Shown in pieces: positions 34,105 through 49,437 of a DNA stretch of 64,000 bases (the first letter of the stretch is position 1; each line of letters begins with the position of its first letter). The stretch is taken from positions 206,854 through 270,853 of the forward strand of contig NZ_JARKMR010000004.1 in the NCBI RefSeq assembly GCF_029350975.1. Direction: 5' to 3'. Below the pieces are notes generated by a model. The model searched no databases. It was given only the letters and a program-made list of their open reading frames with translations, and was not told the origin of the DNA. This stretch comes from Maribacter zhoushanensis (GTDB taxonomy: Bacteria > Bacteroidota > Bacteroidia > Flavobacteriales > Flavobacteriaceae). The position numbers and the translations under genes are program-made.

Positions 34105-35226
34105 ATGAAAAATAGTATTATAGTCAACCTTTTATTCGTTGTAACGCTAAATTTTTCTTGCGCACAAAATACTGACAACAAGGTAACTACCCCAAAAAAG
34201 TCTGTTTTTACAGCTGAGCTGTTCGTCGATGAGGTACAGATTCCATGGGGCTTCACCTTCCTTCCTGACAAAAGTATTTTAATCACCGAAAAAGAAGGGA
34301 AATTGATTCATTTTGCAAACGGAAAAAAAACTCTAATCGGTAATATTCCTAAGGTATATAATAGAGGTCAAGGTGGGTTATTGGATGTAGCCCTTCATCC
34401 AGAGTATTCAAAAAATGGATGGATTTACCTCACTTACGCATCAACGGAAGGGGATGAAAAGGGAGGACATACAGCAATTATGAGAGCAAAATTGAAGAAT
34501 AATTCTTTGACCGAAAAACAAGTACTTTATAAAGCAACGCCCAATACTACCAAAGGGCAACATTTTGGATCTAGAATTGCTTTTGATAATGACGAATATC
34601 TATTCTTTTCAATTGGTGAACGAGGAGATAGAGATATTAATCCGCAAGACATTAAAAGAGACGGTGGTAAAATTTACCGTTTACATGATGATGGGCGCAT
34701 TCCTACAGATAACCCATTTATTGATGTCAAGGGTGCAAAGTCTGCTATTTACAGCTATGGACACCGAAATCCACAAGGATTGACAAAGCACCCGGTTACC
34801 GGAGAAATTTGGGATAACGAACATGGTCCAAGAGGTGGTGATGAAATAAATAGTATTAAAAAAGGCGCTAACTATGGATGGCCATTAGTGACCTACGGAA
34901 TCAATTATGGCGGTACACCTATTACAGATAAAACTGAAATGAAAGGAATGGAACAACCCATACATTATTGGGTACCGTCTATTGCACCTAGCGGCATGGA
35001 GTTCGTAACAACCGATAAATATAAAAATTGGAAAGGAAGCCTATTAGTTGGGTCCCTAGCTTTTCAATATTTAGAACGATTGGTCCTGGATGGAGAAAAA
35101 GTAATTTTGCGTGAAAAACTAATGCCTGGTTTAGGTAGAGTACGTGCCGTAAAACAAGGACCTGATGGGTATATTTATGTAGCCGTTGAAGGTAAGGGTA
35201 TCTATAAACTAATACCGAAAAATTAG
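34105..35226 (+). CDS. PQQ-dependent sugar dehydrogenase (GSDH/Asd family) lipoprotein
   Basis: A 373-residue protein with signal and lipobox LNFSC (Cys19). The remainder is a six-bladed beta-propeller of the glucose/sorbosone dehydrogenase family. Visible signatures are PWGFTFLPD, the GQGGLLDVALHP blade, YSYGHRNPQGL and ENEHGPRGGDE-like WDNEHGPRGGDEIN, which supply the PQQ and calcium site in the soluble aldose sugar dehydrogenase family (YliI/Asd). It would oxidise aldoses in the periplasm if PQQ is available; no pqq biosynthesis genes are in the window. It is divergent from the SprB-like gene and is followed by a shared terminator. Confidence 0.88.
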   Translation: MKNSIIVNLLFVVTLNFSCAQNTDNKVTTPKKSVFTAELFVDEVQIPWGFTFLPDKSILITEKEGKLIHFANGKKTLIGNIPKVYNRGQGGLLDVALHPEYSKNGWIYLTYASTEGDEKGGHTAIMRAKLKNNSLTEKQVLYKATPNTTKGQHFGSRIAFDNDEYLFFSIGERGDRDINPQDIKRDGGKIYRLHDDGRIPTDNPFIDVKGAKSAIYSYGHRNPQGLTKHPVTGEIWDNEHGPRGGDEINSIKKGANYGWPLVTYGINYGGTPITDKTEMKGMEQPIHYWVPSIAPSGMEFVTTDKYKNWKGSLLVGSLAFQYLERLVLDGEKVILREKLMPGLGRVRAVKQGPDGYIYVAVEGKGIYKLIPKN

Positions 35227-35315: not shown

Positions 35316-36128
35316 TTATCCCCTACCGGCATCAATAGCCAACTTTACAGAGCCATGCTTTTTTAATAAAGCCTCAGCTGCTGCATATTCTATGTCGAGC
35401 CCCTCCATGATATAACGTGTACCACGATCAACCAACTTGTCGTTGCTCAATTGCATATTCACCATTTTATTACCCTTAACCCTACCTATTTTTATCATTA
35501 AAGCAGTTGATATCATATTAAGAACCAGTTTTTGCGAAGTACCACTTTTCATTCTAGTACTACCGGTTAGAAATTCTGGGCCAACATTGATTTCTATAGG
35601 AATATCCGCAATTCTAGCAATGGGCGCACCTGGATTGTTCGTAATCGCTGCAGTTAAAATTCCATTTTGTTTAGCATCTTCCAAACCACCAATTACATAT
35701 GGTGTACTACCCGATGCCGCAATACCTACAACAACATCATTAGCATTAATATCATGTTTTTTTAAATCTAACCATGCTTGCTTAGTAGCATCTTCAGCAT
35801 TTTCTACGGCTTTTCTTATCGCAGTATCTCCACCAGCAATTAAACCCACAACACGTTCATGTGGCATACCAAAAGTTGGCGGAATTTCAGAAGCATCTAG
35901 AATTCCTAATCTACCACTAGTACCGGCACCAATGTAAAAAAGTCTCCCGCCTTTATTAAATCTTTCAGTCAAAGCATCTACTAGTTTAGTAACCTGTGGA
36001 ATTGTTTTTTCTACGGCATCAGCTATTTTCTTATCCTCCTCATTCATTTTTTGAAGAATAGTAGTGGTATCCATCAACTCTAAATTGTCATGATTAGACG
36101 GAGTCTCAGTAATTTTTTTGTAATCCAT
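35316..36128 (-). CDS. murQ: N-acetylmuramic acid 6-phosphate etherase
   Basis: MurQ cleaves the D-lactyl ether of MurNAc-6-P, giving GlcNAc-6-P and D-lactate in peptidoglycan recycling. The 270-residue protein has the SIS-domain sugar-phosphate loop GAGTSGRLG (68-76), catalytic Glu81 in DASEIPPTFG, a second conserved Glu near 111 (ENAEDA) and the TGSTRMKSGTSQKL signature. It is slightly shorter than the E. coli enzyme (298) at the C terminus. Its start lies 4 bases after the stop codon of the regulator gene upstream, so the two share a transcript from the divergent promoter at about 36.92 kb. Confidence 0.96.
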   Translation of the reverse strand: MDYKKITETPSNHDNLELMDTTTILQKMNEEDKKIADAVEKTIPQVTKLVDALTERFNKGGRLFYIGAGTSGRLGILDASEIPPTFGMPHERVVGLIAGGDTAIRKAVENAEDATKQAWLDLKKHDINANDVVVGIAASGSTPYVIGGLEDAKQNGILTAAITNNPGAPIARIADIPIEINVGPEFLTGSTRMKSGTSQKLVLNMISTALMIKIGRVKGNKMVNMQLSNDKLVDRGTRYIMEGLDIEYAAAEALLKKHGSVKLAIDAGRG

Positions 36129-36132
36129 ATAA

Positions 36133-36882
36133 TTATAAAATTTTAATATCGTGATTTTTAAAAGCCTTTAGTAAGTTATCATCGGGCTTTAACTCGGTAA
36201 TCATTGTATTGATAGAGTTAATATCGCATGTCTTATAACGATGTTGAGAATTTAGTTTTTCAGAAATAGATAATAACACAGTTTTCTTTGATGCCTTTAT
36301 TACCGCTTTTTTTATCTGAACAATATCCCAATCAAACTCCGTTAGACCATATGTTGCATCAACATACCCTGTACCTATAAAACTATAATCAAATCGTATT
36401 TCAGAAATATGATGAATGGCATTTGCGCCAATAGCGATCTGTGCTTCTTTAGAAATTTGTCCCCCAATTGAAATTACGTTGATATTTGCTTTATGAGAAA
36501 GCTCCATAGCAACTGGCAGACTAATGGTAAAGCAAGTAAGGTTTAAATTCTCAGGTATAATCCTGGCAAGTTCCATACAGGTAGTACCACCGTCTAAAAA
36601 AATAACTGCACCATCTCTCAACATACCAACAGCTTTAGCAGCAATGGCAGCCTTATCGGCTAACTTATAAATATTGGTGTTTCTGGCACTATTGGTCATA
36701 AACCCCATAGAGATTGCGCCACCATGTACCTTACGCAGTTTTTTTTCAGCGTCTAGCTCCTTAACATCTCTTCTTATAGTATCAATAGAAACATCTAAAG
36801 CCTCGGCTATATCCGTTATAAGAATTCTATTATGCAAATCTACCTCACTTAATATAGTCTGCTGCCGTTCTTCTTTTAGCAT
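36133..36882 (-). CDS. DeoR/GlpR-family transcriptional regulator of the amino-sugar locus
   Basis: A 249-residue DeoR-type regulator. The N-terminal winged helix-turn-helix is at about 5-58, with the family signature in VSIDTIRRDVKELD and the wing LRKVHGGA. The C-terminal DeoRC sugar-phosphate-sensing domain has the ribose-phosphate-isomerase-like loop FLDGGTTCMELA (about 96-107). The family usually represses sugar catabolism genes and is released by a phosphorylated intermediate. Here GlcN-6-P, GlcNAc-6-P or MurNAc-6-P are plausible effectors, inferred from the neighbours murQ and nagB. Mirror-image operator-like sites lie immediately upstream, suggesting autoregulation. Confidence 0.92.
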   Translation of the reverse strand: MLKEERQQTILSEVDLHNRILITDIAEALDVSIDTIRRDVKELDAEKKLRKVHGGAISMGFMTNSARNTNIYKLADKAAIAAKAVGMLRDGAVIFLDGGTTCMELARIIPENLNLTCFTISLPVAMELSHKANINVISIGGQISKEAQIAIGANAIHHISEIRFDYSFIGTGYVDATYGLTEFDWDIVQIKKAVIKASKKTVLLSISEKLNSQHRYKTCDINSINTMITELKPDDNLLKAFKNHDIKIL

Positions 36883-36914
36883 TTAAAAAACCTCTTTTTT
36901 ACTTATGAATCATA

Positions 36915-36922
36915 CAAAGATA
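36915..36922 (-). promoter_or_regulatory. -7 element of the deoR-murQ promoter
   Basis: The minus strand reads TATCTTTG, a perfect TAnnTTTG match, 32 bases upstream of the regulator start codon. Its expected -33 region coincides with the operator half at 36939-36949 instead of a TTTG. Confidence 0.55.
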
Positions 36923-36938
36923 GGGATTTTTAACGCAT

Positions 36939-36949
36939 GCTGTTTTATG
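36939..36949 (+). promoter_or_regulatory. Operator-like site, left arm (GCTGTTTTATG)
   Basis: This 11-base sequence is the exact inverted copy of CATAAAACAGC at 37014-37024. It lies 16 bases behind the minus-strand -7 box, where RNA polymerase would contact -33. It is the probable binding site of the adjacent DeoR-family protein. Confidence 0.5.
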
Positions 36950-36987
36950 ACGTTAATATAATGTAAATAGAATTTAAAGATTAATTA

Positions 36988-37024
36988 ACAGCAAAATACA
37001 GCATAATTTATGGCATAAAACAGC
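36988..37024 (+). promoter_or_regulatory. Operator-like cluster, right side (three ACAGC units ending in CATAAAACAGC)
   Basis: ACAGC occurs at 36988-36992, 36998-37002 and 37020-37024, with starts 10 and 22 bases apart, close to whole helical turns. The last is part of CATAAAACAGC (37014-37024), the inverted match of the left arm. It lies 19 bases before the nagB -7 box. Confidence 0.5.
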
Positions 37025-37043
37025 AAATATTCAAAATAACGCA

Positions 37044-37051
37044 TATATTTG
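37044..37051 (+). promoter_or_regulatory. -7 element of the nagB promoter
   Basis: TATATTTG is a perfect TAnnTTTG match and would start transcription near 37055-37058, about 30 bases before the nagB ATG. There is no TTTG at -33; the operator CATAAAACAGC is there instead. Confidence 0.55.
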
Positions 37052-37087
37052 CATGGATTCAAAAATTCAAAACCCTACCACTAGCTC

Positions 37088-39016
37088 ATGAAAAATACCG
37101 CAAAAAAATCCAAATTTGACATCAGCCACAAACCCATTGGTCAGTTTGAAGAAACAAGATTTGAAAAAATACATAATGTAATTTTCGAAGATTCCAATGA
37201 AGCTTCAATAGTAGTTGCTCATGAAATTGCTGCATTGATAAAAAAGAGACAAGGGCAAAAAAGAAATTGTGTTTTAGGCTTAGCTACCGGGTCTTCCCCT
37301 ATTAGAGTATATGAAGAATTGGTTAGAATGCATAAAGAAGAAGGATTAAGTTTTAAAAATGTAGTCACCTTTAACTTAGACGAATATCTACCAATGGAGC
37401 CAAATAACATACAGAGTTATTTTTACTTCATGCACGAGCATCTTTTTAACCATGTAGATATTCCAGAGGAAAATATCCACATTCCAGATGGTACGGTTAG
37501 TAGTAAAGAGACAATTGCGTATTGCCTAAGTTATGATCGCAAAATAAAAGAATATGGCGGTTTAGATTTTCAATTGTTAGGAATTGGTAGAACAGGCCAT
37601 GTTGGCTTTAACGAACCTGGCTCACATTTTAATTCGGGAACACGAGTTATCACGCTAGATCACATTACACGTGTAGATGCCGCACCTGCTTTTTTAGGCA
37701 TAGCTAATGTTCCTAGAAAGGCAATTACCATGGGCATTGCTACGGTAAGAAAAGCAAAAAGAATTGTTTTATTAGGATGGGGTGAAAACAAAGCAGGAAT
37801 TATAAAAAAGACCATTGAGGGCGATATCTCATCTCATGTTCCAGCAACCTATTTACAAGAACATGACAATTGTACTTTTGTTTTAGATACCGGTGCAGGA
37901 AGCCAATTAACAAAAAACAAAACGCCTTGGCTGGTAGATGCCTGTGAATGGACGGAGGAACTAAAAGCGAAAGCCATGGTTTGGCTCTGTGAAAACACGG
38001 GTAAAACAATATTGAGCCTAACCGATAAAGATTACAACGATAACGGTATGGCCGATCTATTGGCCTTAGCTGATTCTTATGATCTGAATATTGAAATGTT
38101 CAATAAGCTACAACATACCATTACAGGATGGCCAGGTGGCAAACCAAATGCAGATGACACCCATAGACCTGAAAGAGCAACACCTGCTAAAAAACGAGTT
38201 ATTATTTTTAGTCCACACCCCGATGATGACGTTATTTCCATGGGCGGAACTTTTGATAGATTGGTAGAACAAGGTCATGATGTGCATATCGTTTACCAAA
38301 CTTCAGGTAACATTGCGGTATCAGACACCGATGCTAGAAAATATGCAGAAATAGCTATGCAGATTAATCCGTCAGATGAGGCAAAGAATATTATAAAATC
38401 AATTTCTGAAAAGAATGAAACTCGCATAGATGCTCCAGAAGTTAGAAATCTAAAAGGAAAAATTAGAAGAGGAGAATCTTATGCTGCTACTAGATATATG
38501 GGGCTGCAAGATGAAAACGTTCACTTTTTAGATTTACCATTTTATGAAACAGGAACGATCAAGAAAAAGAACTTATCTGATGAAGACATTAACATCGTTA
38601 TAGATATTATCAAACAGATAAAACCTCATCAAATATATGCTGCTGGCGACTTAGCTGATCCACATGGCACCCACAAAGTTTGTTTAGATGCTGTCTTTGC
38701 AGCATGCGAAGAATTGAAATCAGAATCATTTATGAAAGACTGCTGGTTATGGCTATACAGAGGGGCTTGGCATGAATGGGATATTAATGAAATTGAAATG
38801 GCAGTACCTATGAGTCCGGGGCAAGTATTGAAAAAAAGATATGCTATTTTCTGTCACCAATCTCAGAAGGACGGCGTAATGTTCCAAGGTGATGATTCTA
38901 GAGAATTCTGGATGCGTGCAGAAGAAAGAAACAGAGATACCGCTAATAAATATAAAGCAATGGGCTTATCATCATATGCAGCAATGGAAGCCTTTGTAAG
39001 ACATAAATTTAACTAA
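37088..39016 (+). CDS. nagB: Glucosamine-6-phosphate deaminase fused to a PIG-L/LmbE deacetylase-like domain
   Basis: The 642-residue protein is more than twice the length of E. coli NagB (266). Residues about 30-290 form the deaminase: FNLDEY (95-100, Asp98 at the catalytic position), GRTGHVGFNEPG (167-178) with His171, and the substrate loop LATGSSPI. Residues about 365-640 form a PIG-L-type N-acetyl-hydrolase fold with SPHPDDD (375-381) and DPHGTH (524-529), which match the zinc-binding HPDD and HxxH motifs, so the second active site looks intact. NagB converts GlcN-6-P to fructose-6-P and ammonia. The fused domain could deacetylate GlcNAc-6-P, which is inference. It has its own regulated promoter and a 3' terminator. 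Confidence 0.93.
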   Translation: MKNTAKKSKFDISHKPIGQFEETRFEKIHNVIFEDSNEASIVVAHEIAALIKKRQGQKRNCVLGLATGSSPIRVYEELVRMHKEEGLSFKNVVTFNLDEYLPMEPNNIQSYFYFMHEHLFNHVDIPEENIHIPDGTVSSKETIAYCLSYDRKIKEYGGLDFQLLGIGRTGHVGFNEPGSHFNSGTRVITLDHITRVDAAPAFLGIANVPRKAITMGIATVRKAKRIVLLGWGENKAGIIKKTIEGDISSHVPATYLQEHDNCTFVLDTGAGSQLTKNKTPWLVDACEWTEELKAKAMVWLCENTGKTILSLTDKDYNDNGMADLLALADSYDLNIEMFNKLQHTITGWPGGKPNADDTHRPERATPAKKRVIIFSPHPDDDVISMGGTFDRLVEQGHDVHIVYQTSGNIAVSDTDARKYAEIAMQINPSDEAKNIIKSISEKNETRIDAPEVRNLKGKIRRGESYAATRYMGLQDENVHFLDLPFYETGTIKKKNLSDEDINIVIDIIKQIKPHQIYAAGDLADPHGTHKVCLDAVFAACEELKSESFMKDCWLWLYRGAWHEWDINEIEMAVPMSPGQVLKKRYAIFCHQSQKDGVMFQGDDSREFWMRAEERNRDTANKYKAMGLSSYAAMEAFVRHKFN

Positions 39017-39028
39017 CAACTAAATTTG
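38993..39028 (+). promoter_or_regulatory. Possible promoter of the muropeptide operon, at the 3' end of nagB
   Basis: TTTG (38993-38996) and a perfect -7 box TAAATTTG (39021-39028) are separated by 24 bases, slightly wide. Transcription would begin near 39033-39036, inside the 5' arm of the nagB terminator hairpin. Confidence 0.4.
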
Positions 39029-39032
39029 AATT

Positions 39033-39068
39033 AAAAGGCCTATTTTAGTTTTAAAATGGGTCTTTTTT
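39033..39068 (+). terminator. Terminator between nagB and the DigH-like gene
   Basis: A 15-bp stem with two G-U wobbles (39033-39047 with 39052-39066) and loop GTTT is followed by T residues. It ends only 6 bases before the next ATG. Confidence 0.65.
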
Positions 39069-39074
39069 ATATTT

Positions 39075-40592
39075 ATGACTAAACAACTAACGCTACTCGT
39101 ACTATTATTACTTCTTAATTCTTGCGGAATTTTCAAATCATATGAGAAATATCCAAAGAGAGAATTTAGAGGGGTTTGGATTGCTACCGTGGTCAATATT
39201 GATTGGCCCAAAAATGGCAATGACACTGCAGATAAGCAAAAAGCCGACTACCTTAAAATTTTAGATTTTTACGAAAAGGAGAATTACAATGCTGTAATAG
39301 TTCAGGTAAGAGCTGCAGGTGATGCCTTTTATCAATCTGACTATGCACCATATTCTAGGTTTCTAACAGGCAAAGAAGGTACACCTCCAAAATGGAATAC
39401 AGATGTTCTTGATTGGATGATAAACGAAGCTCATGTAAGAGGTATGGAATTCCATGCATGGTTAAACCCATACAGAGCAACTTTTGATGAGAATTTTGAA
39501 GTTCTATCAGAAACGCATGACTACTGTACTCACCCAGAATGGATAGTTCATTATGGGAAAAAGAACTATTATAACCCAGGATTACCTGAAGTTCGTAATC
39601 ACTTTTCCAAAATCATTGAAGAACTGGTTTCTTCCTATGATGTAGATGCCATTCACTTTGATGATTATTTCTATCCGTACACTATCCAAGATGCTGTTTT
39701 TAATGATTCCCTAGCATTTGAAACCTATGCTGAGCAAGGGCAGACCATTGATGATTGGCGACGTAGCAATATTGATTCACTCGTAAAACAATCTCACGAA
39801 ACTATTAAATCAATTAAACCATGGGTTCAGTTTGGTATTAGTCCGTTTGGAGTTTGGAAAAACAATTCTACAGATCCAAAAGGCTCTGACACCAAAGCAG
39901 GGCAAACCACTTATGAAGATTTATATGCAGACCCATTACTTTGGATGCAAAAAGGATGGATAGATTATCTAGCTCCCCAAGTCTATTGGAGCATGGAATT
40001 ACCGGTAGCCTCGCATAGAAAAATTGTAGACTGGTGGTCAAAAAACAATTACAACACCAACCTTTATGTGGGCAATGGTCCATACAAGATTAGAAACAAC
40101 AGCGACAAAGCATGGGATGATATTGAGGAAATTCCAAATCAGATTGAACTTGCCCGTGAAACTCCTGAAATTCAAGGCAACATAATGTTTAGTGCAAAGT
40201 CGCTAATGAAAGACAATGACGATGTGGTTGAATATATGCACAAAAAGTATTACAAAAAACCGGCATTGAATCCTGTTTCTACATTATCAAAAAATCATAC
40301 TACGAGAACCCCAAAGTTATTAGCCACTTCCAAGACAGATTCTGAGCTTATTCTTGAGTTTAATGATTTAAACGAGATACGGTTTGCATTGTTTTACACT
40401 TCTGGTATTCGAGTAAAAAAAACTTATGACATTAAGAAATTACGTCACAAAATTTATGTGGACAACCACTCAAAAACCGTACGTATTCCTCTAGAGCAAT
40501 TGAGAAAAAAATATAACGCCATTACCTTTTTAGACGTCTATGGTAAAGAAACCACACCTATAATTTTCAATTTAAAACAAGTGAATAAATAA
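39075..40592 (+). CDS. GHL10-type (DigH-like) glycosyl hydrolase lipoprotein
   Basis: A 505-residue lipoprotein (lipobox LLNSC, Cys17). The body is a TIM-barrel of the glycosyl-hydrolase-like 10 (GHL10, former DUF187) family: the strand REFRGVWIATVVNIDWP (about 28-44), AVIVQVRAAGDAFYQS, FHAWLNPYRATFD, the DAIHFDDYFYPY motif with two Asp at a barrel strand end, and LAPQVYWSMEL. E. coli DigH of this family cleaves denuded peptidoglycan glycan strands. Here the neighbours (AmpG-like, NagZ, AnmK) make a peptidoglycan-glycan hydrolase role likely, which is inference. The AmpG-like gene follows after 1 base. Confidence 0.86.
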   Translation: MTKQLTLLVLLLLLNSCGIFKSYEKYPKREFRGVWIATVVNIDWPKNGNDTADKQKADYLKILDFYEKENYNAVIVQVRAAGDAFYQSDYAPYSRFLTGKEGTPPKWNTDVLDWMINEAHVRGMEFHAWLNPYRATFDENFEVLSETHDYCTHPEWIVHYGKKNYYNPGLPEVRNHFSKIIEELVSSYDVDAIHFDDYFYPYTIQDAVFNDSLAFETYAEQGQTIDDWRRSNIDSLVKQSHETIKSIKPWVQFGISPFGVWKNNSTDPKGSDTKAGQTTYEDLYADPLLWMQKGWIDYLAPQVYWSMELPVASHRKIVDWWSKNNYNTNLYVGNGPYKIRNNSDKAWDDIEEIPNQIELARETPEIQGNIMFSAKSLMKDNDDVVEYMHKKYYKKPALNPVSTLSKNHTTRTPKLLATSKTDSELILEFNDLNEIRFALFYTSGIRVKKTYDIKKLRHKIYVDNHSKTVRIPLEQLRKKYNAITFLDVYGKETTPIIFNLKQVNK

Positions 40593-40593
40593 T

Positions 40594-41868
40594 ATGGTAC
40601 AAAAAGACAAAGGAGCTTGGGCATGGGTACCTGTGTTATATTTCACACAAGGTTTACCTTACGTATTGGTGGTTACGGTATCTGTAATCATGTATAAAAA
40701 ACTAGGTGTTAGTAATGAAGATATTGGGCTTTACACCAGTATTTTATATTTGCCATGGGTATTAAAACCCTTATGGAGTCCGTTTGTAGATTTAAAAAGT
40801 ACTAAGCGTAAATGGTTTTTAAGCATGCAGCTTTTAATCGCCATTGCGCTACTAGGCGTTGGGCTCACCCTACCAACCAATATGTTTTTCATTTCATCAT
40901 TAGCCTGTTTTTGGATAGCTGCTTTTGCCTCGGCTACAAATGACATTGCTTCAGATGGGTATTATATGCTAGGGCTGACCGAAAAAAAACAATCTTTTTT
41001 CGTGGGAATGCGAAGTACTTTTTACCGACTTGCCATGGTTACGGGCGAAGGATTAATAGTGGTACTTGCCGGTTTTTTAGAAAATAAATATGGTGACAAT
41101 ACCAAAGCTTGGAGTATAACCATGTCTGCAGCAGCTTTTTTAATGTTGATTATGACCGTTGCCAACTTCTTTGTTACTCCAAAATATGAAATAGAAAACA
41201 CCGAAGAAAAAGAAAAACCTGCAGGTTTCTTAGAGGTATTTGCCTCCTTCTTCCAAAAACCAGGTATCGGTATTGCTCTAGCCTTTATTCTAAGCTACCG
41301 TTTAGGAGAATCACAATTGGTAAAAATGACATCGCCGTTTTTACTGGACTCTCCCGACAAAGGCGGTCTCGGATATTCAACAGAACAATTAGGAACCATT
41401 TTTGGTACTGCGGGAGTTATTTTTCTTTCCATAGGAGGAATATTAGGAGGTATACTTATTTCTCGAGACGGATTAAAAAAATGGATGCTACCAATGGTAC
41501 TTTCTTTGAATCTACCCAACATTTTATATGCTGTATTGGCAATCACAAATACTACTAATATTTACGCAGTAACGGCAACCGTAATTTTTGAAAAATTTGG
41601 CTATGGATTCGGCTTCGCCGCCTTTTTAATGTACCTCATTTATATTGCAGATGGTAAGTCTAAAACATCACATTATGCCATTGCTACAGGCTTTATGGCA
41701 TTGGGCATGATGTTACCCGGTATGGTAAGCGGTTATATTCAACAATGGCTGGGGTATGATGGCTTTTTTGTTTGGGTAGTCATTGCTGCCTTACCAGCGC
41801 TATTCTTATTAAAATTCATTTCTTACCCGGCAGATTTCGGCAAAAAAACAACAGTCCCCAATGAATAA
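40594..41868 (+). CDS. ampG: AmpG-like MFS muropeptide permease
   Basis: A 424-residue major-facilitator protein with about 12 membrane segments. The N-terminal FTQGLPYVLV stretch and the LPWVLKPLWSPFVDLKSTKRKW loop between the second and third helices are characteristic of AmpG-type permeases. AmpG proteins bring GlcNAc-anhydroMurNAc (with or without peptide) into the cytoplasm. It begins 1 base after the DigH-like gene and overlaps the NagZ gene by 8 bases, so its product stands between a surface or periplasmic hydrolase and cytoplasmic enzymes. It lacks the two extra C-terminal helices of enterobacterial AmpG (491 residues). Confidence 0.86.
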   Translation: MVQKDKGAWAWVPVLYFTQGLPYVLVVTVSVIMYKKLGVSNEDIGLYTSILYLPWVLKPLWSPFVDLKSTKRKWFLSMQLLIAIALLGVGLTLPTNMFFISSLACFWIAAFASATNDIASDGYYMLGLTEKKQSFFVGMRSTFYRLAMVTGEGLIVVLAGFLENKYGDNTKAWSITMSAAAFLMLIMTVANFFVTPKYEIENTEEKEKPAGFLEVFASFFQKPGIGIALAFILSYRLGESQLVKMTSPFLLDSPDKGGLGYSTEQLGTIFGTAGVIFLSIGGILGGILISRDGLKKWMLPMVLSLNLPNILYAVLAITNTTNIYAVTATVIFEKFGYGFGFAAFLMYLIYIADGKSKTSHYAIATGFMALGMMLPGMVSGYIQQWLGYDGFFVWVVIAALPALFLLKFISYPADFGKKTTVPNE

Positions 41869-43417
41869 ATTTATACCTACAATTGAAGCAATAGAAAAGC
41901 TTTCCCTAACGGAGAAAGTTGGACAACTATTTATGCCTGCTGCATTTATAAATGATACTGAGGAAGATATTCAGCAATTAGAAAAAGTAATATCTGAGCA
42001 CCACGTTGGCGGACTCTGCTTTTTTCACTCCAGAGCCAGTGCTGCTACCAATTTTGAAGGCAAGAAGAAAATAGTTATCAATGAAAATAGTTTCAACACT
42101 TTAAAAAACCTCATCAAGAGATATCAAAAAGCAGCTACCTATCCCCTATTAATTTCTATTGATGCAGAATGGGGCTTGGCTATGCGAATAGAAAACACTC
42201 CACAATACCCGTACGCTATAACTTTAGGGGCAAATTCAGAAAACAAAGATTTAGTCTTTGAAGTGGGCAAGCAGATAGCTAAAGATTGCAAAGCAGCCGG
42301 TATACACTGGAACCTTTCTCCCGTGGTAGATGTAAACGTGAATCCTAATAACCCTGTTATTGGCTATCGTTCTTTTGGTGATGACAAGGATAATGTTGTT
42401 GCCATGGCAACTGCTTTTGTTAAAGGCACACAGATAGAAAACTTACTTACAAGCATTAAACATTTTCCAGGTCACGGTGATACGGCAACAGATTCTCATT
42501 TAGGTTTACCAGTAATTGATAAGTCTAAAACTGACCTAATGGAAAATGAGCTCTATCCATTTCAAAAATTAATTGACCAAGGTGTAGATTCAGTTATGGT
42601 AGGTCATTTATCCGTTCCTGCTTTAACTACTACTCCTGAACTACCCTCAAGTATCAATAAAGATATTATAACCGGAGTGCTAAGAAATGAAATGGGTTTT
42701 GACGGAGTTGTAATTTCCGACGCTTTAAATATGCATGCCGTTTCTAAAAATTATCCGACTAAAGGCGAACTAGAATGGCTTGCTTTTGATGCCGGTAACG
42801 ACGTATTATGTTTTGCGGAGCATATTGAAGAAGGAATACAATTCATATTAAAAAATGCATCAAAAGAACAAATCAATAAAAGTATAGAGCGTATTTGGCA
42901 ATTAAAGGAAAAAGCAATTACTGAAGAAGGTTTGGAAATAGAATTAACCGCCCCTTCTACTCTAAATAGAAAAATAGCCGAAAAATCAATCACTTTACAT
43001 CACGGTTCTGCCACTGAAATTGCACATTTTAGGGGAACAATTTTCTGCACATTAACTATTAAAAGATTTGGGACAGACCAAACTAAAAAAGACATTTTAG
43101 AAAACATTGTAGCGATGAAAAAGGAAGTTAAAAACGAAACAGAGATTCTTTTGCTTTTAACTCCCCCACAAATAAAACCGACTAACAAATTCGGCTTTTT
43201 TGATGAGGAAATAGATTTCATCAACGAACTAATCGCTACTAAAAATGTTGTAATGTATCACTTTGGAAATCCGTATGCGTTAAAGTTTTTCAATACAGAA
43301 AGAACAACAGCGACAGTAATAGCCTATCAAAATTTCAAAGAGTTTCAAGATGTGGCAACTGAACATTTTTTAGGCAATCTTGAAGCAGTAGGGAAATTGC
43401 CAGTAACATTAAAATAA
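41861..43417 (+). CDS. nagZ: Glycoside hydrolase family 3 beta-N-acetylglucosaminidase (NagZ-type), cytoplasmic
   Basis: NagZ removes GlcNAc from GlcNAc-anhydroMurNAc. The 518-residue protein has no signal peptide, so it is cytoplasmic. The NagZ motif KHFPGHGDTATDSH (200-213) supplies the Asp211-Ser-His213 acid/base dyad, and the nucleophile is Asp287 in VVISDALNMH. A C-terminal alpha/beta domain (about 370-518) makes it longer than one-domain E. coli NagZ (341) and nearer the two-domain Bacillus type. Its ATG overlaps the end of the AmpG-like gene by 8 bases, implying coupled translation. It is followed after 4 bases by the CPBP protease gene. Confidence 0.93.
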   Translation: MNKFIPTIEAIEKLSLTEKVGQLFMPAAFINDTEEDIQQLEKVISEHHVGGLCFFHSRASAATNFEGKKKIVINENSFNTLKNLIKRYQKAATYPLLISIDAEWGLAMRIENTPQYPYAITLGANSENKDLVFEVGKQIAKDCKAAGIHWNLSPVVDVNVNPNNPVIGYRSFGDDKDNVVAMATAFVKGTQIENLLTSIKHFPGHGDTATDSHLGLPVIDKSKTDLMENELYPFQKLIDQGVDSVMVGHLSVPALTTTPELPSSINKDIITGVLRNEMGFDGVVISDALNMHAVSKNYPTKGELEWLAFDAGNDVLCFAEHIEEGIQFILKNASKEQINKSIERIWQLKEKAITEEGLEIELTAPSTLNRKIAEKSITLHHGSATEIAHFRGTIFCTLTIKRFGTDQTKKDILENIVAMKKEVKNETEILLLLTPPQIKPTNKFGFFDEEIDFINELIATKNVVMYHFGNPYALKFFNTERTTATVIAYQNFKEFQDVATEHFLGNLEAVGKLPVTLK

Positions 43418-43421
43418 AAAT

Positions 43422-44276
43422 ATGAATCATAATGGATGGAGTAGAATATTCGCTCTTATAATTCCGTACATTCTAATACTTAGTATATTTCAAGTTGCGG
43501 GTTCCTTAGTTGCCGGTATTCCATTTGGTGATAGAGATTTCCAAGAAACCTCTCTTCAACAATTGATAATGACATTTTTCTCATTTTTAGGCACTCTTTT
43601 TTTAGTTTGGCTTTTCATGAAATATATGGATACGCAGAATTTTATCGAAGTTGGACTTCAAATAAAAGACAGAAAAAAAGATATTATAATAGGAACCCTA
43701 CTTGGAATTGTCATTATGGGCGTAGCCTATTTAGGTTTAATTGTATCTGAAGAAATTATCTTTACTGCAATTAAATTTGATTTTTTAGAACTGGTTTACA
43801 CTATACTATTATTTATATTAGTAGCAATTTTAGAAGAAGTGCTGTTTAGAGGGTATATTCAAAAGAACCTAATGCTCTCATTTAACAAATATGTTGCATT
43901 AATAATTACTTCTGCACTTTTCGCCTTAGTACATGGCGCCAATCCTAATATAAGTTTATTTAGTTTACTTGGGCTTTTCTTAGCCGGTTTAGCGTTGGGT
44001 GCTTCTTATATGTATACAAAAAATTTATGGTACCCAATAGCATTTCATTTTAGTTGGAACTTGTTTCAATCGTTGTTCGGGTTCAATGTTAGTGGGCAAG
44101 ACATTTATAGTATAATTGAATTTACAATTCCAGAAAATAACAAAATCAACGGAGGTCAATTTGGCTTTGAAGGTTCAATTTTTTCTTTGCTCACAGAAGC
44201 AACGTTATTGGCCGTTATCATTTATTATTATCAAGTAAAAAAGAAAACGCAACATCTTACTAATGAAAACATATAA
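43422..44276 (+). CDS. CPBP family intramembrane glutamic protease
   Basis: A 284-residue protein with about eight membrane segments. The CPBP (Abi/Rce1-like) active-site motifs are complete: Glu138-Glu139 with Arg143 (LEEVLFRGY), His171 in FALVHG, and His209 with Asn213 in AFHFSWN. Rce1-type members cleave prenylated proteins; bacterial members have varied or unknown substrates. Its place inside the muropeptide operon, 4 bases after nagZ and overlapping anmK by 14 bases, indicates co-expression with peptidoglycan salvage. Its substrate is unknown. Confidence 0.9.
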   Translation: MNHNGWSRIFALIIPYILILSIFQVAGSLVAGIPFGDRDFQETSLQQLIMTFFSFLGTLFLVWLFMKYMDTQNFIEVGLQIKDRKKDIIIGTLLGIVIMGVAYLGLIVSEEIIFTAIKFDFLELVYTILLFILVAILEEVLFRGYIQKNLMLSFNKYVALIITSALFALVHGANPNISLFSLLGLFLAGLALGASYMYTKNLWYPIAFHFSWNLFQSLFGFNVSGQDIYSIIEFTIPENNKINGGQFGFEGSIFSLLTEATLLAVIIYYYQVKKKTQHLTNENI

Positions 44277-45339
44277 TATTATCGGTCTTATGTCAGGCAC
44301 ATCATTAGATGGTCTAGATTTAGCCTATTGTCACATTTGGGAGAAAGATCACATTTGGCATTTTGATATCAAAGAAACCAAAAGTGTGAACTATTCAACA
44401 GAAATGCTGAATACGCTTAAGAATGCCATTAGTTTATCCGGAGAAAAACTTATTGAATTACATAACACCTACGGCACTTGGCTTGGTGAACAAACCTCTT
44501 TATTTATTAATCAAAATAATTTAGAGGTCGATTATATAGCCAGTCACGGGCATACCACACATCACAGACCAGAAATGGGACTTACTTTTCAAGTAGGTTC
44601 TGGGCAACATATAGCAAACACAACCGGAATTAAAGTCATAGCTGATTTTAGAACAAATGACTTGGCGCTTGGTGGTCAGGGCGCTCCTCTAGTACCTATA
44701 GGTGACCGCATGTTTTTTAATGACTATGAATTCTGTTTGAATTTAGGCGGTATTAGTAACATCTCTTTTGATGTTAAGGATAAAAGAATAGCTTATGATA
44801 TAGGCTTAGCAAATATGATTCTAAATTACATTACCAGAAAGGTAGATTTAGAATATGATGAAGATGGCAATCTCGCCAGAACCGGAAGCATAAACCAAGA
44901 AATGTTAGAGCGATTAAATAGTCTTAAATACTACTTATTGCCACACCCAAAATCTATTGGTTATGAATGGTTTTTAGACGAAGTGGTACCTATTGTGGAA
45001 AATACAGATGATACTATTGAGAATTTATTACACACCAGTATTCACCATATATGCGATAAAGTTGCGCAACAGATTCAATTAAATTTTATAAAAAAAGAAC
45101 AACAAGTATTGGTTACAGGTGGTGGCGCATTGAACTCCTTTTTAATTGAGATGCTACAACAAAAACTAGGTTTTACCACAAAAGTGGTTGTACCAGAAAA
45201 AATAATTATTGAATTTAAAGAAGCTTTGGTATTCGCATTAATGGGTGTATTAAGAGTAGAGCAATTAACAAATGTACTCTCTTCTGTTACCGGGGCAAAA
45301 AAAGACTCTTCAAGTGGAGTATTGTTCATACCCAATTAA
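44263..45339 (+). CDS. anmK: Anhydro-N-acetylmuramic acid kinase
   Basis: AnmK opens the 1,6-anhydro ring of anhydroMurNAc while phosphorylating it, giving MurNAc-6-P for MurQ. The 358-residue protein has the N-terminal phosphate motif GLMSGTSLDGLDLA (8-21), the DFRTNDLALGGQGAPLVPIGD substrate/catalytic block (first Asp as base), NLGGISNISF and the C-terminal adenosine motif TGGGALN. The start overlaps the CPBP gene by 14 bases. It is the last gene of the operon that starts with the DigH-like hydrolase; a weak hairpin follows at 45382-45397. Confidence 0.95.
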   Translation: MKTYNIIGLMSGTSLDGLDLAYCHIWEKDHIWHFDIKETKSVNYSTEMLNTLKNAISLSGEKLIELHNTYGTWLGEQTSLFINQNNLEVDYIASHGHTTHHRPEMGLTFQVGSGQHIANTTGIKVIADFRTNDLALGGQGAPLVPIGDRMFFNDYEFCLNLGGISNISFDVKDKRIAYDIGLANMILNYITRKVDLEYDEDGNLARTGSINQEMLERLNSLKYYLLPHPKSIGYEWFLDEVVPIVENTDDTIENLLHTSIHHICDKVAQQIQLNFIKKEQQVLVTGGGALNSFLIEMLQQKLGFTTKVVVPEKIIIEFKEALVFALMGVLRVEQLTNVLSSVTGAKKDSSSGVLFIPN

Positions 45340-45381
45340 AGTTTTTTACCTAATTTACTCGATAATCGAGATTTAAAATTC

Positions 45382-45410
45382 CAGAGGTACCCCTCTGCTT
45401 TAGTATTTTT
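45382..45410 (+). terminator. Possible terminator after anmK
   Basis: A 6-bp stem (CAGAGG 45382-45387, CCTCTG 45392-45397) with a 4-base loop is followed, after about 7 bases, by six T residues. A separate perfect hairpin CTCGAT-A-ATCGAG sits at 45358-45370. Either or both may act; the call is weak. Confidence 0.35.
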
Positions 45411-45469
45411 TATTTGATTCACTCTTGTTGAAAAACAAGGGTATTCACGCCATTAAAATCGTATCGAAA

Positions 45470-45730
45470 ATGTCAGAAAAACAAAAGAAAGCATCAGCCT
45501 ACTGGAAAGAAAATGTTAGGTACTTATTCATTTTACTAGCAATTTGGTTTCTTGTTTCGTTTGGCGCGGGAATACTCTTCAAAGAATCTTTGGACACTAT
45601 TAAAATTGGAGGTTTTAAACTAGGCTTTTGGTTTGCGCAACAAGGTTCTATTTATGTATTTGTTATTTTGATTTTTGTCTATGTAAGGCTCATGAACAAA
45701 TTAGATAAGAAATACGGATATGACGAATAA
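45470..45730 (+). CDS. DUF4212 protein: small subunit of a sodium/solute symporter
   Basis: An 86-residue membrane protein with two helices (about 16-36 and 55-77) belonging to DUF4212, the family described as the small subunit of VC_2705-type sodium:solute symporters. Translation is placed at ATG 45470 (MSEKQKK) rather than the upstream TTG at 45425, because family members start with this charged segment and WKENVRY. The large subunit begins 33 bases after its stop. By association with acetyl-CoA synthetase, acetate or another monocarboxylate is the likely substrate. Confidence 0.9.
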   Translation: MSEKQKKASAYWKENVRYLFILLAIWFLVSFGAGILFKESLDTIKIGGFKLGFWFAQQGSIYVFVILIFVYVRLMNKLDKKYGYDE

Positions 45731-45763
45731 CACCAAAACCTTCAACCACCAAAAACCAAATTT

Positions 45764-47458
45764 ATGACTGTTCAAACTTGGACGTATATTTTAGTCGGAC
45801 TCACATTTGCACTATACATAGGTATCGCAATCTGGTCTAGAGCCGGATCTACAAAAGACTTTTATGTTGCTGGCGGCGGCGTTTCACCACTTGCAAATGG
45901 TATGGCAACAGCAGCGGATTGGATGTCTGCAGCATCATTTATTTCAATGGCAGGGATTATCTCCTTCGCCGGCTATGATGGCTCTGTATACTTAATGGGT
46001 TGGACAGGCGGCTATGTATTACTGGCTTTATTGTTAGCTCCATATTTGAGAAAATTTGGCAAATTCACGGTACCTGATTTTATAGGCGATAGATACTATT
46101 CAAAAACAGCACGTATTGTTGCGGTAATTTGTGCACTAATTGTTTCTTTCACATATGTAGCAGGTCAAATGCGAGGTGTTGGTGTTGTTTTTTCAAGATT
46201 CCTGCAAGTAGATATTAATACCGGTGTTATTATTGGTATGATAATAGTTTTGTTTTATGCCGTTTTAGGCGGAATGAAAGGCATTACCTATACTCAGGTT
46301 GCTCAGTATTGCGTATTAATTTTTGCCTTTATGGTTCCCGCAATATTCATATCCATCCAAATGACAGGAAACCCTATTCCACAACTAGGTATGGGTGCAA
46401 CTCTTAATGATGGATCCGGTACTTTTTTATTGGATAAATTAGATGGACTATCAACAGAACTAGGTTTCAACGAGTACACCAATGGCTCTAAATCTGTAAC
46501 CGATATTTTTGCCATTACTTTAGCGTTAATGGTAGGTACCGCAGGATTACCACATGTTATTGTTCGTTTCTTTACGGTCAAGAAAGTAAAAGATGCCCGT
46601 AAATCTGCAGGGTTGGCATTGTTGCTAATCGCTATTCTTTATACCACGGCACCAGCGGTATCTGTATTTGCAAAGACAAATCTAATTAACACAGTTAGCA
46701 ACGAAGAATATTCCAATATGCCGGTTTGGTTTAAAAACTGGGAAGAAACCGGATTACTTTCTTTTGAGGATAAGAACGATGATGGTAAAATTCAATATGT
46801 AGCAGATATATCTAAAAATGAATTGACCATAGATAATGATATTATGGTATTGGCAAATCCTGAAATTGCAGATTTACCAGCTTGGGTAATTGCTTTGGTA
46901 GCAGCTGGCGGATTGGCAGCAGCGCTTTCAACGGCAGCGGGGTTGTTGCTAGTAATTTCAGCATCGGTTTCTCATGACCTAGTGAAGAAAGTATTTAAAC
47001 CGAATATTTCTGACAAAGCAGAATTATGGGTCGCCAGAGGTGCAGCAACAGTTGCTGTAGTTATCGCAGGTTATTTTGGTATAAATCCGCCAGGCTTTGT
47101 AGCTGCGGTAGTAGCATTAGCCTTCGGTTTGGCAGCAGCCTCCTTCTTCCCTGCCATTGTGCTAGGTATCTTTTATAAAAAAATGAACAAAGAAGGGGCT
47201 ATTAGCGGCATGGTAGTCGGTATAGTTCTAATGTTATTCTACATGACCAAATTTAAATTTGGCTGGTTCGGTGGCGGAACCCCTGAAGATTGGTGGTTTG
47301 GTATTTCACCTGAAGGCTTTGGTAGTATTGCTATGATTGCTAACTTTATTGTAGCAATCATTGTTCTTCAATTTACACCAGAACCACCTACAGATGTTCA
47401 AGAAATTGTAGAAAACATAAGAATACCCAGTGGTGCAGGTGAAGCTACGGGACATTAA
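45764..47458 (+). CDS. Sodium:solute symporter, VC_2705/ActP-like subfamily
   Basis: A 564-residue transporter with about 13 membrane segments. SSS-family signatures are visible: FYVAGGGVSPLANGMATAAD near the N terminus, AASFISMAG, YVAGQMRG and the LVAAGGLAAALSTAAGLLLV helix. A periplasmic insert around residues 325-365 contains an EF-hand-like DKNDDGKIQ loop, seen in this subfamily. It is related to the acetate permease ActP. With the DUF4212 subunit upstream and acs downstream it probably imports acetate or another short carboxylate with sodium; the substrate is inference. Confidence 0.92.
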   Translation: MTVQTWTYILVGLTFALYIGIAIWSRAGSTKDFYVAGGGVSPLANGMATAADWMSAASFISMAGIISFAGYDGSVYLMGWTGGYVLLALLLAPYLRKFGKFTVPDFIGDRYYSKTARIVAVICALIVSFTYVAGQMRGVGVVFSRFLQVDINTGVIIGMIIVLFYAVLGGMKGITYTQVAQYCVLIFAFMVPAIFISIQMTGNPIPQLGMGATLNDGSGTFLLDKLDGLSTELGFNEYTNGSKSVTDIFAITLALMVGTAGLPHVIVRFFTVKKVKDARKSAGLALLLIAILYTTAPAVSVFAKTNLINTVSNEEYSNMPVWFKNWEETGLLSFEDKNDDGKIQYVADISKNELTIDNDIMVLANPEIADLPAWVIALVAAGGLAAALSTAAGLLLVISASVSHDLVKKVFKPNISDKAELWVARGAATVAVVIAGYFGINPPGFVAAVVALAFGLAAASFFPAIVLGIFYKKMNKEGAISGMVVGIVLMLFYMTKFKFGWFGGGTPEDWWFGISPEGFGSIAMIANFIVAIIVLQFTPEPPTDVQEIVENIRIPSGAGEATGH

Positions 47459-47529
47459 CAGTAACAAATCAATATTCAACAACAACCAAAGGACATCAAC
47501 ACCCTTTGCATATTAAATTAACGCATACC

Positions 47530-49437
47530 ATGAGTAATTATCACATTAAACATCTGGAGGAATATTATCAAGTCTATCGAAAATCGGTTCGTAATCCCGA
47601 AGCTTTCTGGGAAGAAATTGCAGAGGAGCATTTTGTTTGGCGTAAGCGATGGGATAATGTGTTAGCTTGGGATTTTAAAAAACCAGAAATAAAATGGTTT
47701 GAAGGTGCAAAACTAAACATTACAGAAAACTGTTTAGACCGCCATTTACCAACAAGAGGTAACAAAACAGCTATAATTTTTGAACCTAACAATCCAGACG
47801 AAGAAGCACTACACATAACGTACAGGCAATTGCATGAACGTGTTTGTCGTATGGCGAATGTGTTATTGGACCACGGAGTTAAAAAAGGTGATCGTGTATG
47901 TATTTATTTACCAATGATCCCTGAGTTATCTGTAGCACTTTTAGCATGTGCACGTATAGGAGCCATACATTCCGTTGTATTCGCAGGTTTTTCTTCACAT
48001 GCATTAGCAACGCGTATTAACGACTCTGATTGTAAGGTCGTATTAACATCAGATGGTTCTTTTAGAGGAAATAAATCCATCGACCTAAAAGGTATCGTGG
48101 ATAAAGCTTTGGAAGGTTGCCCAGGTGTAGCTAATGTTTTAGTCGTAAAACGTACCGGTTCTAAAATTGATATGCTAGAAAATAGGGACAAATGGCTACA
48201 ACCATTGTTAGATGAAGCATATGCAGATTGTGTTGCCGAGGTTATGGATGCCGAAGACCCGTTATTTATTTTATATACATCAGGATCTACGGGTACACCC
48301 AAAGGAATGGTACATACCACGGCAGGCTATATGGTATACACTGCTTACACCTTTAAAAACGTATTTCAATACAAAGAACATGATGTATATTGGTGTACTG
48401 CGGACATCGGGTGGATAACCGGACACTCTTATATTGTTTACGGACCGTTAGCAAATGGCGCCACAACTTTAATGTTTGAAGGGGTTCCCTCTTATCCAGA
48501 TTTTGGTCGTTTTTGGGAAGTTGTCGAAAAACACAAAGTAAATCAGTTTTATACGGCGCCAACAGCCATTAGAGCACTTGCTAAAGAAAATTTAGATTTT
48601 CTTGAAAAACACGATTTATCCAGCCTTAAAGTTTTAGGTTCTGTAGGCGAGCCTATAAACGAGGAGGCATGGCATTGGTACAATAATAACGTAGGTAAAA
48701 AGAATAGTCCAATTGTAGATACCTGGTGGCAAACAGAAACAGGTGGTATTATGATTACGCCAATACCATATGTAACACCAACCACACCAACGTATGCTAC
48801 ATTACCATTTATTGGTATTCAACCAGCATTAATGGACGAGAATGCGAAAGAAATAAAAGGTAATCAGGTTGAAGGTAGATTATGTGTAAAATTCCCATGG
48901 CCATCTATAGCCAGAACTATTTGGGGTAACCACGACCGTTACCGAGACACCTATTTTTCAGCATATGAAAACATGTATTTTACAGGTGATGGTGCCTTAA
49001 GAGATGCTGTAGGCTATTACAGAATTACAGGTCGTGTAGATGATGTAATTATAGTATCCGGTCATAATTTAGGAACCGCACCAATAGAAGATTCTATTAA
49101 CGAGCACCAAGCTGTGGCAGAATCTGCAATAGTAGGTTTCCCGCACGATGTAAAAGGAAATGCACTCTACGGATACGTTATTTTAAAGGAAACAGGTGAA
49201 AGTAGAGATCGCGATAACTTAAGAAAAGAAATCAACCAACAGATCACAGAGCATGTGGGGCCAATTGCAAAACTAGATAAGATTCAGTTCGTATCCGGAT
49301 TACCAAAAACACGTAGCGGTAAAATTATGCGTAGAATTTTACGTAAAATAGCAAGCAACGACACAAGTAATTTAGGGGACACAAGCACCTTATTAAATCC
49401 GGAAATTGTTCAAGAAATTATGGATAACTCCTTGTAA
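47530..49437 (+). CDS. acs: Acetate--CoA ligase (acetyl-CoA synthetase)
   Basis: The enzyme activates acetate with ATP and CoA through acetyl-AMP. The 635-residue form starts at ATG 47530 (MSNYHIKHL); a TTG at 47506 would add eight residues of no resemblance. Adenylation motifs are LYTSGSTGTPKGMVH, the DTWWQTETG motif that binds the adenine and acetyl group, TGDGALRD, and the hinge ITGRVDDVIIVSGHN. Near the C terminus PKTRSGKIMRR contains the catalytic lysine that is the target of regulatory acetylation in Acs enzymes. It follows the symporter by about 70 bases and ends in a strong terminator. Confidence 0.96.
   Translation: MSNYHIKHLEEYYQVYRKSVRNPEAFWEEIAEEHFVWRKRWDNVLAWDFKKPEIKWFEGAKLNITENCLDRHLPTRGNKTAIIFEPNNPDEEALHITYRQLHERVCRMANVLLDHGVKKGDRVCIYLPMIPELSVALLACARIGAIHSVVFAGFSSHALATRINDSDCKVVLTSDGSFRGNKSIDLKGIVDKALEGCPGVANVLVVKRTGSKIDMLENRDKWLQPLLDEAYADCVAEVMDAEDPLFILYTSGSTGTPKGMVHTTAGYMVYTAYTFKNVFQYKEHDVYWCTADIGWITGHSYIVYGPLANGATTLMFEGVPSYPDFGRFWEVVEKHKVNQFYTAPTAIRALAKENLDFLEKHDLSSLKVLGSVGEPINEEAWHWYNNNVGKKNSPIVDTWWQTETGGIMITPIPYVTPTTPTYATLPFIGIQPALMDENAKEIKGNQVEGRLCVKFPWPSIARTIWGNHDRYRDTYFSAYENMYFTGDGALRDAVGYYRITGRVDDVIIVSGHNLGTAPIEDSINEHQAVAESAIVGFPHDVKGNALYGYVILKETGESRDRDNLRKEINQQITEHVGPIAKLDKIQFVSGLPKTRSGKIMRRILRKIASNDTSNLGDTSTLLNPEIVQEIMDNSL

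Follow-up and report, generated by a model that had tools for sequence, protein, structure and literature searches.

The NagB/PIG-L fusion protein of Maribacter zhoushanensis was analysed in a stretch of 64,000 nucleotides (RefSeq assembly GCF_029350975.1, contig NZ_JARKMR010000004.1, positions 206,854 to 270,853; hereafter the window), in which positions 35316 to 49437 hold a putative locus for cell wall sugar salvage. The fusion gene (37088-39016, forward strand) encodes a glucosamine-6-phosphate (GlcN-6-P) deaminase, NagB, joined to a PIG-L/LmbE-type N-deacetylase. nagA, which encodes the amidohydrolase-type N-acetylglucosamine-6-phosphate (GlcNAc-6-P) deacetylase, was absent from the genome. 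The best, though unproven, explanation of these sequence data is that the fused PIG-L domain deacetylates GlcNAc-6-P and that NagB then deaminates the product, a reading which we hold with moderate confidence. It is supported because nagA is missing while MurQ and AnmK, the predicted makers of GlcNAc-6-P, are present.

Architecture of the fusion protein

The fusion was a full-length member of NF002557 (1055.6 bits, residues 4-641), a protein family already known and annotated. Its NagB domain scored above the equivalog cut-off (Table 1) and retained the catalytic residues D98, H171, E176 and K235; T169 is presumably the position equivalent to D141 in the numbering of E. coli NagB. The PIG-L domain retained H377-P-D379-D380-D381 and H529, which confirmed the intact metal motifs of the original prediction. 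By analogy with H49, D52 and H157 of rat PIG-L, as described in the part of that source covered (PMC4101496), H377, D380 and H529 would be metal ligands, and D379, corresponding to rat D51, would be the general base.

An AlphaFold model of the fusion, built with 61 sequences (pLDDT 90.3, pTM 0.82), was compared by Foldseek with solved structures, and the best 50 of 1170 matches were considered. Among these, the NagB half resembled B. subtilis NagB (2bkv; TMt 0.97, 41% identity), and the PIG-L half resembled the putative deacetylase BC1534 (2ixd; TMt 0.74) and a diacetylchitobiose deacetylase (Dac; 8bgo; TMt 0.63). Among the characterised PDB proteins in these matches, Dac was closest to the PIG-L domain, which supports the proposed activity. 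A sequence search of solved structures gave none for the fusion itself. Dac and BC1534 have the fold and the H-P-D-D / H motifs in common with the fused PIG-L, whereas the latter is joined to NagB and carries its own subfamily signature. NagA (TIGR00221, amidohydrolase superfamily), which would occupy the same reaction and place in the pathway, is not homologous to the fused PIG-L, and the two differ in fold and in metal motifs. Four PIG-L genes were found in the genome: the fusion, BshB1 (296.9 bits, cut-off 182.5) and two genes encoding proteins with an apparent export signal at the N-terminus. The fusion is therefore the sole unassigned cytoplasmic PIG-L of the genome.

Absence of nagA in the genome and genus

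When TIGR00221 was searched against the whole 4.26 Mb genome (99.98% complete) and all 24 candidates were scored, no nagA was detected. The matches were five fragments of 41-72 positions (20.9-26.7 bits), the best of which covered 52 positions. The same profile gave matches in 14 of 14 control genomes, over the cut-off in 7. A1, a profile built from 12 Bacteroidota NagA proteins, detected no nagA in any of the 36 genomes of the genus, its best match scoring 40.2 bits; in 30 of these genomes completeness was at least 90% and contamination no more than 5%. The lack of nagA first noted in the window was thus borne out and extended to the genome and genus, and a normal nagA gene outside the window, which had been named as the finding to count against the prediction, was looked for with TIGR00221 and not found (best 26.7 bits).

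Distribution of the fusion and nagA in Bacteroidota

A phylum sample of 296 genomes, each at least 90% complete, was searched for the fusion, nagA and MurQ. The fusion was present in 121 genomes, plain NagB (E<1e-55) in 26 and a weaker NagB-like protein in 12, while 137 had none. nagA-like genes were found in 29 of the 121 fusion genomes, 17 of the 26 with plain NagB, 2 of the 12 with the weaker form and 2 of the 137 without any. Among the fusion genomes, 92 had no nagA-like gene, 23 had nagA over the cut-off and 6 had a weaker nagA-like match; in plain-NagB genomes nagA over the cut-off was present in 16 of 26. nagA was significantly rarer with the fusion than with plain NagB (P = 1e-4; strict, P = 3e-5; counted by genus, 21/64 versus 15/23, P = 0.0125) in Fisher tests that ignore phylogeny and use tables compiled, and for genera collapsed, by hand. 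The six weak matches, which had failed strict motifs and had been taken as non-deacetylases, keep the metal residues; that interpretation was withdrawn, and they are counted as nagA-like within the 29.

Because the phylum-wide search had scored just 6 candidates per genome, all 92 nagA-less fusion genomes were rechecked with A1 in sets of 80 and 12 (in some, scoring covered 24 of up to 54 candidates), and only partial matches of at most 46.8 bits were obtained. MurQ was present in 120 of the 121 fusion genomes and in 50 of 50 nagA genomes. As a separate observation, one locus (L348, genome G171) encodes a NagA that by eye seems to carry a Tat-type signal and has its own NagB-like gene beside it; this NagA is possibly an exported deacetylase.

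Conservation and natural separation of the two active sites

Active-site residues were examined in 150 fusion proteins, namely the window protein and those of 120 loci and a further 29. The set represents 114 of the 121 genomes and does not hold every copy. Both sites were intact in 143 proteins, PIG-L residues were changed in 4 and NagB residues in 3, so that the PIG-L catalytic residues were kept in 146 of 150. Each of the 114 genomes had at least one PIG-L-intact copy, and this complete retention, together with the lack of nagA in 92 of 121 fusion genomes, supports the proposed replacement. Among the first 121 proteins, pairwise identity averaged 59.6% in the NagB part and 58.8% in the PIG-L part, indicating that both are about equally constrained. 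All four PIG-L-altered copies were second copies from one genus with NagB residues kept. The idea that PIG-L decays where nagA is present (2 of 45 versus 0 of 76 proteins in the first count) was rejected, since second copies in nagA-less G108 and G119 were altered as well.

The reverse loss was found in two nagA-less genomes, G230 and G238, in which the NagB half of the fusion carries D98Y and H171N and a separate canonical NagB (about 419 bits) is present. Both belong to a family of 61 genomes (f11), 25 of which have a fusion match over the family cut-off. In these 25, D98 and H171 were both changed in 17, H171Q occurred alone in 6, and the NagB domain was missing in 2, while PIG-L was intact in all. 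A further separate NagB match was found in 22 of the 25, and in 7 the canonical NagB lay directly beside the fusion. The form with altered NagB and intact PIG-L was also found in all four Bacteroidales records examined (Bacteroides finegoldii, Parabacteroides distasonis, Prevotella sp. oral taxon 299 and Phocaeicola massiliensis), whereas a Hymenobacter record had both sites intact. Two of the four annotate the altered fusion as glucosamine-6-phosphate deaminase, and two have no annotation there. Judging from these residues, the annotated deaminase activity is probably gone from the Bacteroidales copies examined. The name of NF002557 / PRK02122, ‘glucosamine-6-phosphate deaminase-like protein’, covers the deaminase only, yet this half is altered or missing in 25 of 25 f11 genomes and four of four Bacteroidales records.

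In one nagA-less genome (G219), the same PIG-L subfamily is encoded by a separate gene adjoining a plain NagB. The signature FSPHPDDD, YRGAWxEW and REFW/REFY-RA--RN was found in five fusions and the G219 protein and was absent from three other PIG-L proteins, in an alignment that left out BshB1 and four PIG-L proteins of plain-NagB genomes. The integrity of PIG-L in f11 despite an altered or missing NagB, and the split neighbours of G219, further support GlcNAc-6-P deacetylation by PIG-L.

Gene content of the locus and proposed pathway

The ten genes listed by the original prediction, from MurQ to Acs, are open frames at the positions it gave, and their identities agreed with Pfam and NCBIfam profile searches (Table 1). 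MurQ and AnmK scored above their cut-offs. AmpG and NagZ homologues are present, but both fell below their NCBIfam cut-offs (for NagZ, 207), so the labels are softened to AmpG-like and NagZ-like GH3. The GHL10 protein has a lipoprotein signal with cysteine (LLLLLNSC) and, we assume, resembles DigH. A DUF4212 gene, which the earlier gene list did not contain, lies directly before the symporter gene.

Table 1 Features of the window bearing on the salvage locus
Feature	Position	Strand	Evidence
BadF-type kinase, MurNAc/GlcNAc kinase relative	2392-3243	-	8ow9, 8oqk, 8ow7 matches
MurQ, N-acetylmuramic acid 6-phosphate etherase	35316-36128	-	NF003915 379.9 bits; TIGR00274 313.2 bits, cut-off 302
DeoR/GlpR-type regulator, divergent from fusion gene	36133-36882	-	PF00455, PF08220
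Operator-like repeat TGCTGTTTT	36938-36946	-	Upstream-region repeat counts
Two more operator-like repeats, 36995-37003 (one mismatch) and 37017-37025 (exact)	36995-37025	+	Upstream-region counts
NagB (GlcN-6-P deaminase) domain, residues ~31-275	37178-37912	+	TIGR00502 253.7 bits, cut-off 236.9
PIG-L/LmbE-type metal-dependent N-deacetylase domain, residues ~366-642	38183-39013	+	PF02585 72.4 bits
GHL10 (DigH-like) lipoprotein, putative glycan hydrolase	39075-40592	+	PF02638 232.5 bits
AmpG-like MFS muropeptide importer	40594-41868	+	TIGR00901 199 bits, under cut-off 350
GH3 NagZ-like hexosaminidase, no visible signal peptide	41861-43417	+	PF00933 262 bits; NF003740 150 bits
CPBP (Rce1-like) intramembrane protease	43422-44276	+	PF02517
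AnmK, anhydro-MurNAc kinase	44263-45339	+	NF007144 (equivalog) 504.6 bits, cut-off 436
DUF4212, small partner of SSF symporter	45425-45730	+	PF13937 122 bits
VC_2705-family sodium/solute symporter (SSF)	45764-47458	+	TIGR03648 861 bits
AcsA, acetate-CoA ligase	47506-49437	+	TIGR02188 957.6 bits

These gene identities supported the salvage route proposed for the locus, each reaction of which, and above all the substrate of PIG-L, we infer from sequence. The locus may be an inducible cell wall sugar salvage set read from the divergent control region. The DigH-like lipoprotein would trim glycan, and the AmpG-like protein would import N-acetylglucosamine (GlcNAc)-anhydro-N-acetylmuramic acid (anhydroMurNAc), which the NagZ-like enzyme would split. 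AnmK would then yield N-acetylmuramic acid (MurNAc)-6-P, from which MurQ would form GlcNAc-6-P, while free GlcNAc would be phosphorylated, probably by the BadF kinase. The fused PIG-L would take acetate off GlcNAc-6-P, the NagB domain to which it is joined would convert GlcN-6-P to fructose-6-P and ammonia, and Acs could recapture the released acetate.

The BadF kinase gene adjoins genes for GAPDH and phosphofructokinase. By Pfam the kinase was weak (23.6 bits, cut-off 31.5), but it was related over its full length to solved MurNAc/GlcNAc kinases, namely 8ow9, a ‘putative novel MurNAc kinase’ (1.6e-45, residues 2-279), and the N-acetylglucosamine kinases 8oqk (3.3e-36) and 8ow7 (6.1e-36). The suggestion that it could phosphorylate GlcNAc gained support from these structural relatives.

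Conservation of the locus and its control region

Of 565 loci encoding a relative, the 80 closest were kept, and the 68 of at least 18 kb were counted. The closest named relatives, with fusion proteins up to 97% identical, were Maribacter. MurQ and DeoR each recurred in 63 of the 68 loci, NagZ in 62, AmpG and AnmK in 60, DigH in 53, SSF in 39, Acs in 37 and CPBP in 6. Such recurrence argues that the gene order is not due to chance, in a sample biased by keeping only the closest relatives. The CPBP protease is probably a passenger. The DUF4212 and VC_2705-family symporter genes beside acs (45425-47458) probably form an acetate uptake pair. Pairs of Acs and an SSF symporter are common in their own right. 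The predicted link from deacetylation to Acs thus remained plausible but loose, with Acs in 37 of 68 loci against 60-63 for MurQ, DeoR, NagZ, AmpG and AnmK.

The stretch separating the DeoR gene from the divergent fusion gene (36883-37087) contains repeats of AAAACAGCA, which are possibly the DeoR operator. At least two such sites, with at most one mismatch, were present in 59 of 68 upstream regions (the window and 67 relatives), and the mean number per region was 3.06 compared with 0.07 in mononucleotide shuffles. A 13-base operator pattern allowing 2 mismatches was not above chance in the whole window (11 versus a mean of 7.7); its sole exact matches there lay at 36937-36949 and 37014-37026. 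The pattern stood apart from chance only through its conservation and its concentration within the control region. Promoter and terminator scans of the sequence stayed at chance level.

Outside the locus, a glucose/sorbosone dehydrogenase-type protein (34105-35226; PF07995, 443.9 bits) adjoins murQ. A 2854-residue protein (25414-33978) was seen by eye to have a signal-like start and many repeats, with an end that, we assume, resembles a gliding-type C-terminal domain.

Wider gene neighbourhood of the fusion

In 120 fusion loci of the phylum sample, MurQ within about 6 kb of the fusion was rare (6 loci), and chitin-type neighbours were commoner. Members of a GH20 hexosaminidase cluster, defined by BLAST with three members confirmed by Pfam, occurred in 23 loci; in 19 they lay on the same strand within 340 bp of the fusion, and 11 of these 19 pairs were in nagA-less genomes. 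In one nagA-less genome (locus L130), the fusion was accompanied by a GH18 chitinase, GH20 and a TonB receptor. A NagX-like HGSNAT cluster was present in 8 loci, mostly of nagA-bearing genomes. The GH20, GH18, TonB and NagX-like neighbours are all consistent with a role of the fusion in GlcNAc catabolism.

Discussion

The proposal that PIG-L stands in for NagA gained comparative support, and several observations weigh against it. Intact PIG-L was found in all fetched copies of 22 of the 23 genomes with nagA over the cut-off, so PIG-L is kept equally beside NagA, and the PIG-L-dead second copies of one genus occur both with and without nagA. In f11, the nagA test covered two genomes, G230 and G238. 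Neither the fusion nor nagA was present in 70 of 211 MurQ genomes, 61 of which also lacked a true NagB, which rules out that MurQ genomes always carry one or the other; nagA absence alone is thus no pointer to the fusion. Nor was PIG-L or NagA found beside MurQ in the 20 loci examined from these 70 genomes. The fusion of P. distasonis, with altered NagB and intact PIG-L, has directly upstream of it two nagA genes that score over the TIGR00221 cut-off and keep the metal residues. PIG-L cannot simply fill a gap there, and is redundant, differently regulated or active on another substrate. nagA homologues were also present in the B. finegoldii and Phocaeicola massiliensis records. In Flavobacterium johnsoniae, for which NagA was predicted as Fjoh_3974, deletion of one of four nagB-like genes gave no chitin phenotype, a result explained by redundancy, and NagB could not be expressed, according to the parts covered of Larsbrink 2016 (PMC5127042). 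Mainly on account of the P. distasonis type of counter-case, our confidence in GlcNAc-6-P deacetylation by PIG-L is held at a moderate level.

These cases bear on the possibility that PIG-L acts on another amino sugar linked to the pathway, such as free, not yet phosphorylated GlcNAc or a different N-acetylhexosamine phosphate, and that GlcNAc-6-P is handled by an unrecognised enzyme. We regard this as unlikely, yet deserving serious attention. The intact PIG-L beside nagA, in P. distasonis as in the 22 genomes, agrees with it, as do the 70 MurQ genomes lacking both known candidates and the diacetylchitobiose substrate of the nearest characterised solved relative, as given in the covered part of PMC4101496. 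Fusion to, or adjacency with, a GlcN-6-P deaminase instead predicts GlcN-6-P as the product, and no other unassigned cytoplasmic PIG-L was found in a search that did not extend to non-PIG-L deacetylases. It is rather improbable that the route ends at GlcNAc-6-P, which would be dephosphorylated and excreted, or that a diverged amidohydrolase missed by the NagA profiles removes the acetate. The 61 MurQ genomes that lack nagA, the fusion and a true NagB alike, and the weak amidohydrolase fragments in the genome, would fit such an outcome, whereas NagB is kept next to MurQ in the locus and the NagA matches of the genome are fragments of 41-72 positions (20.9-26.7 bits). Only a very slight chance is given to PIG-L being a regulatory or structural appendage of NagB with dispensable catalysis. 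Four second copies of one genus did lose PIG-L residues and keep those of NagB; such residues were kept in 146 of 150 proteins, and in all 25 f11 genomes despite changed or missing NagB.

Peptidoglycan recycling in E. coli uses AmpG, NagZ, AnmK and MurQ. The salvage locus of the window shares the logic of this system and that of Tannerella forsythia, and differs from both in the lack of NagA, the proposed deacetylase on the NagB polypeptide and the DeoR-type regulator. A nine-gene cluster with AmpG, MurT, MurK and MurQ is described for T. forsythia in the part covered of PMC7670621. In the parts covered of Price 2022 (PMC9007349), acs was important for glucosamine use via an acetylated NagX route in Echinicola vietnamensis; the same work implicates NagA in the four other species (Fig 3A-3D) and not in this one. 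Among the gaps and replacements listed by Ravcheev 2017, PIG-L for NagA does not occur in the parts covered (PMC5583593), and, judged by title and abstract start, none of the papers listed from an open-licence library assigned GlcNAc-6-P deacetylase to the fusion protein. What is new is the proposed activity of the second half and the probable loss of the deaminase in the Bacteroidales copies examined.

For the phylum, sequence comparison gives an even chance that Bacteroidota have a second and unrecognised GlcNAc-6-P deacetylase of the PIG-L type, in most cases joined to NagB (121 of 296 genomes), which replaces a missing NagA and, in the one record examined from each of four Bacteroidales genera, carries a dead deaminase half. 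GlcNAc-6-P deacetylation connects the use of chitin, mucin and cell wall sugars to glycolysis. If the proposal is true, many Bacteroidota scored as lacking the deacetylation step would be able to perform it, and a widely propagated deaminase annotation would be half wrong.

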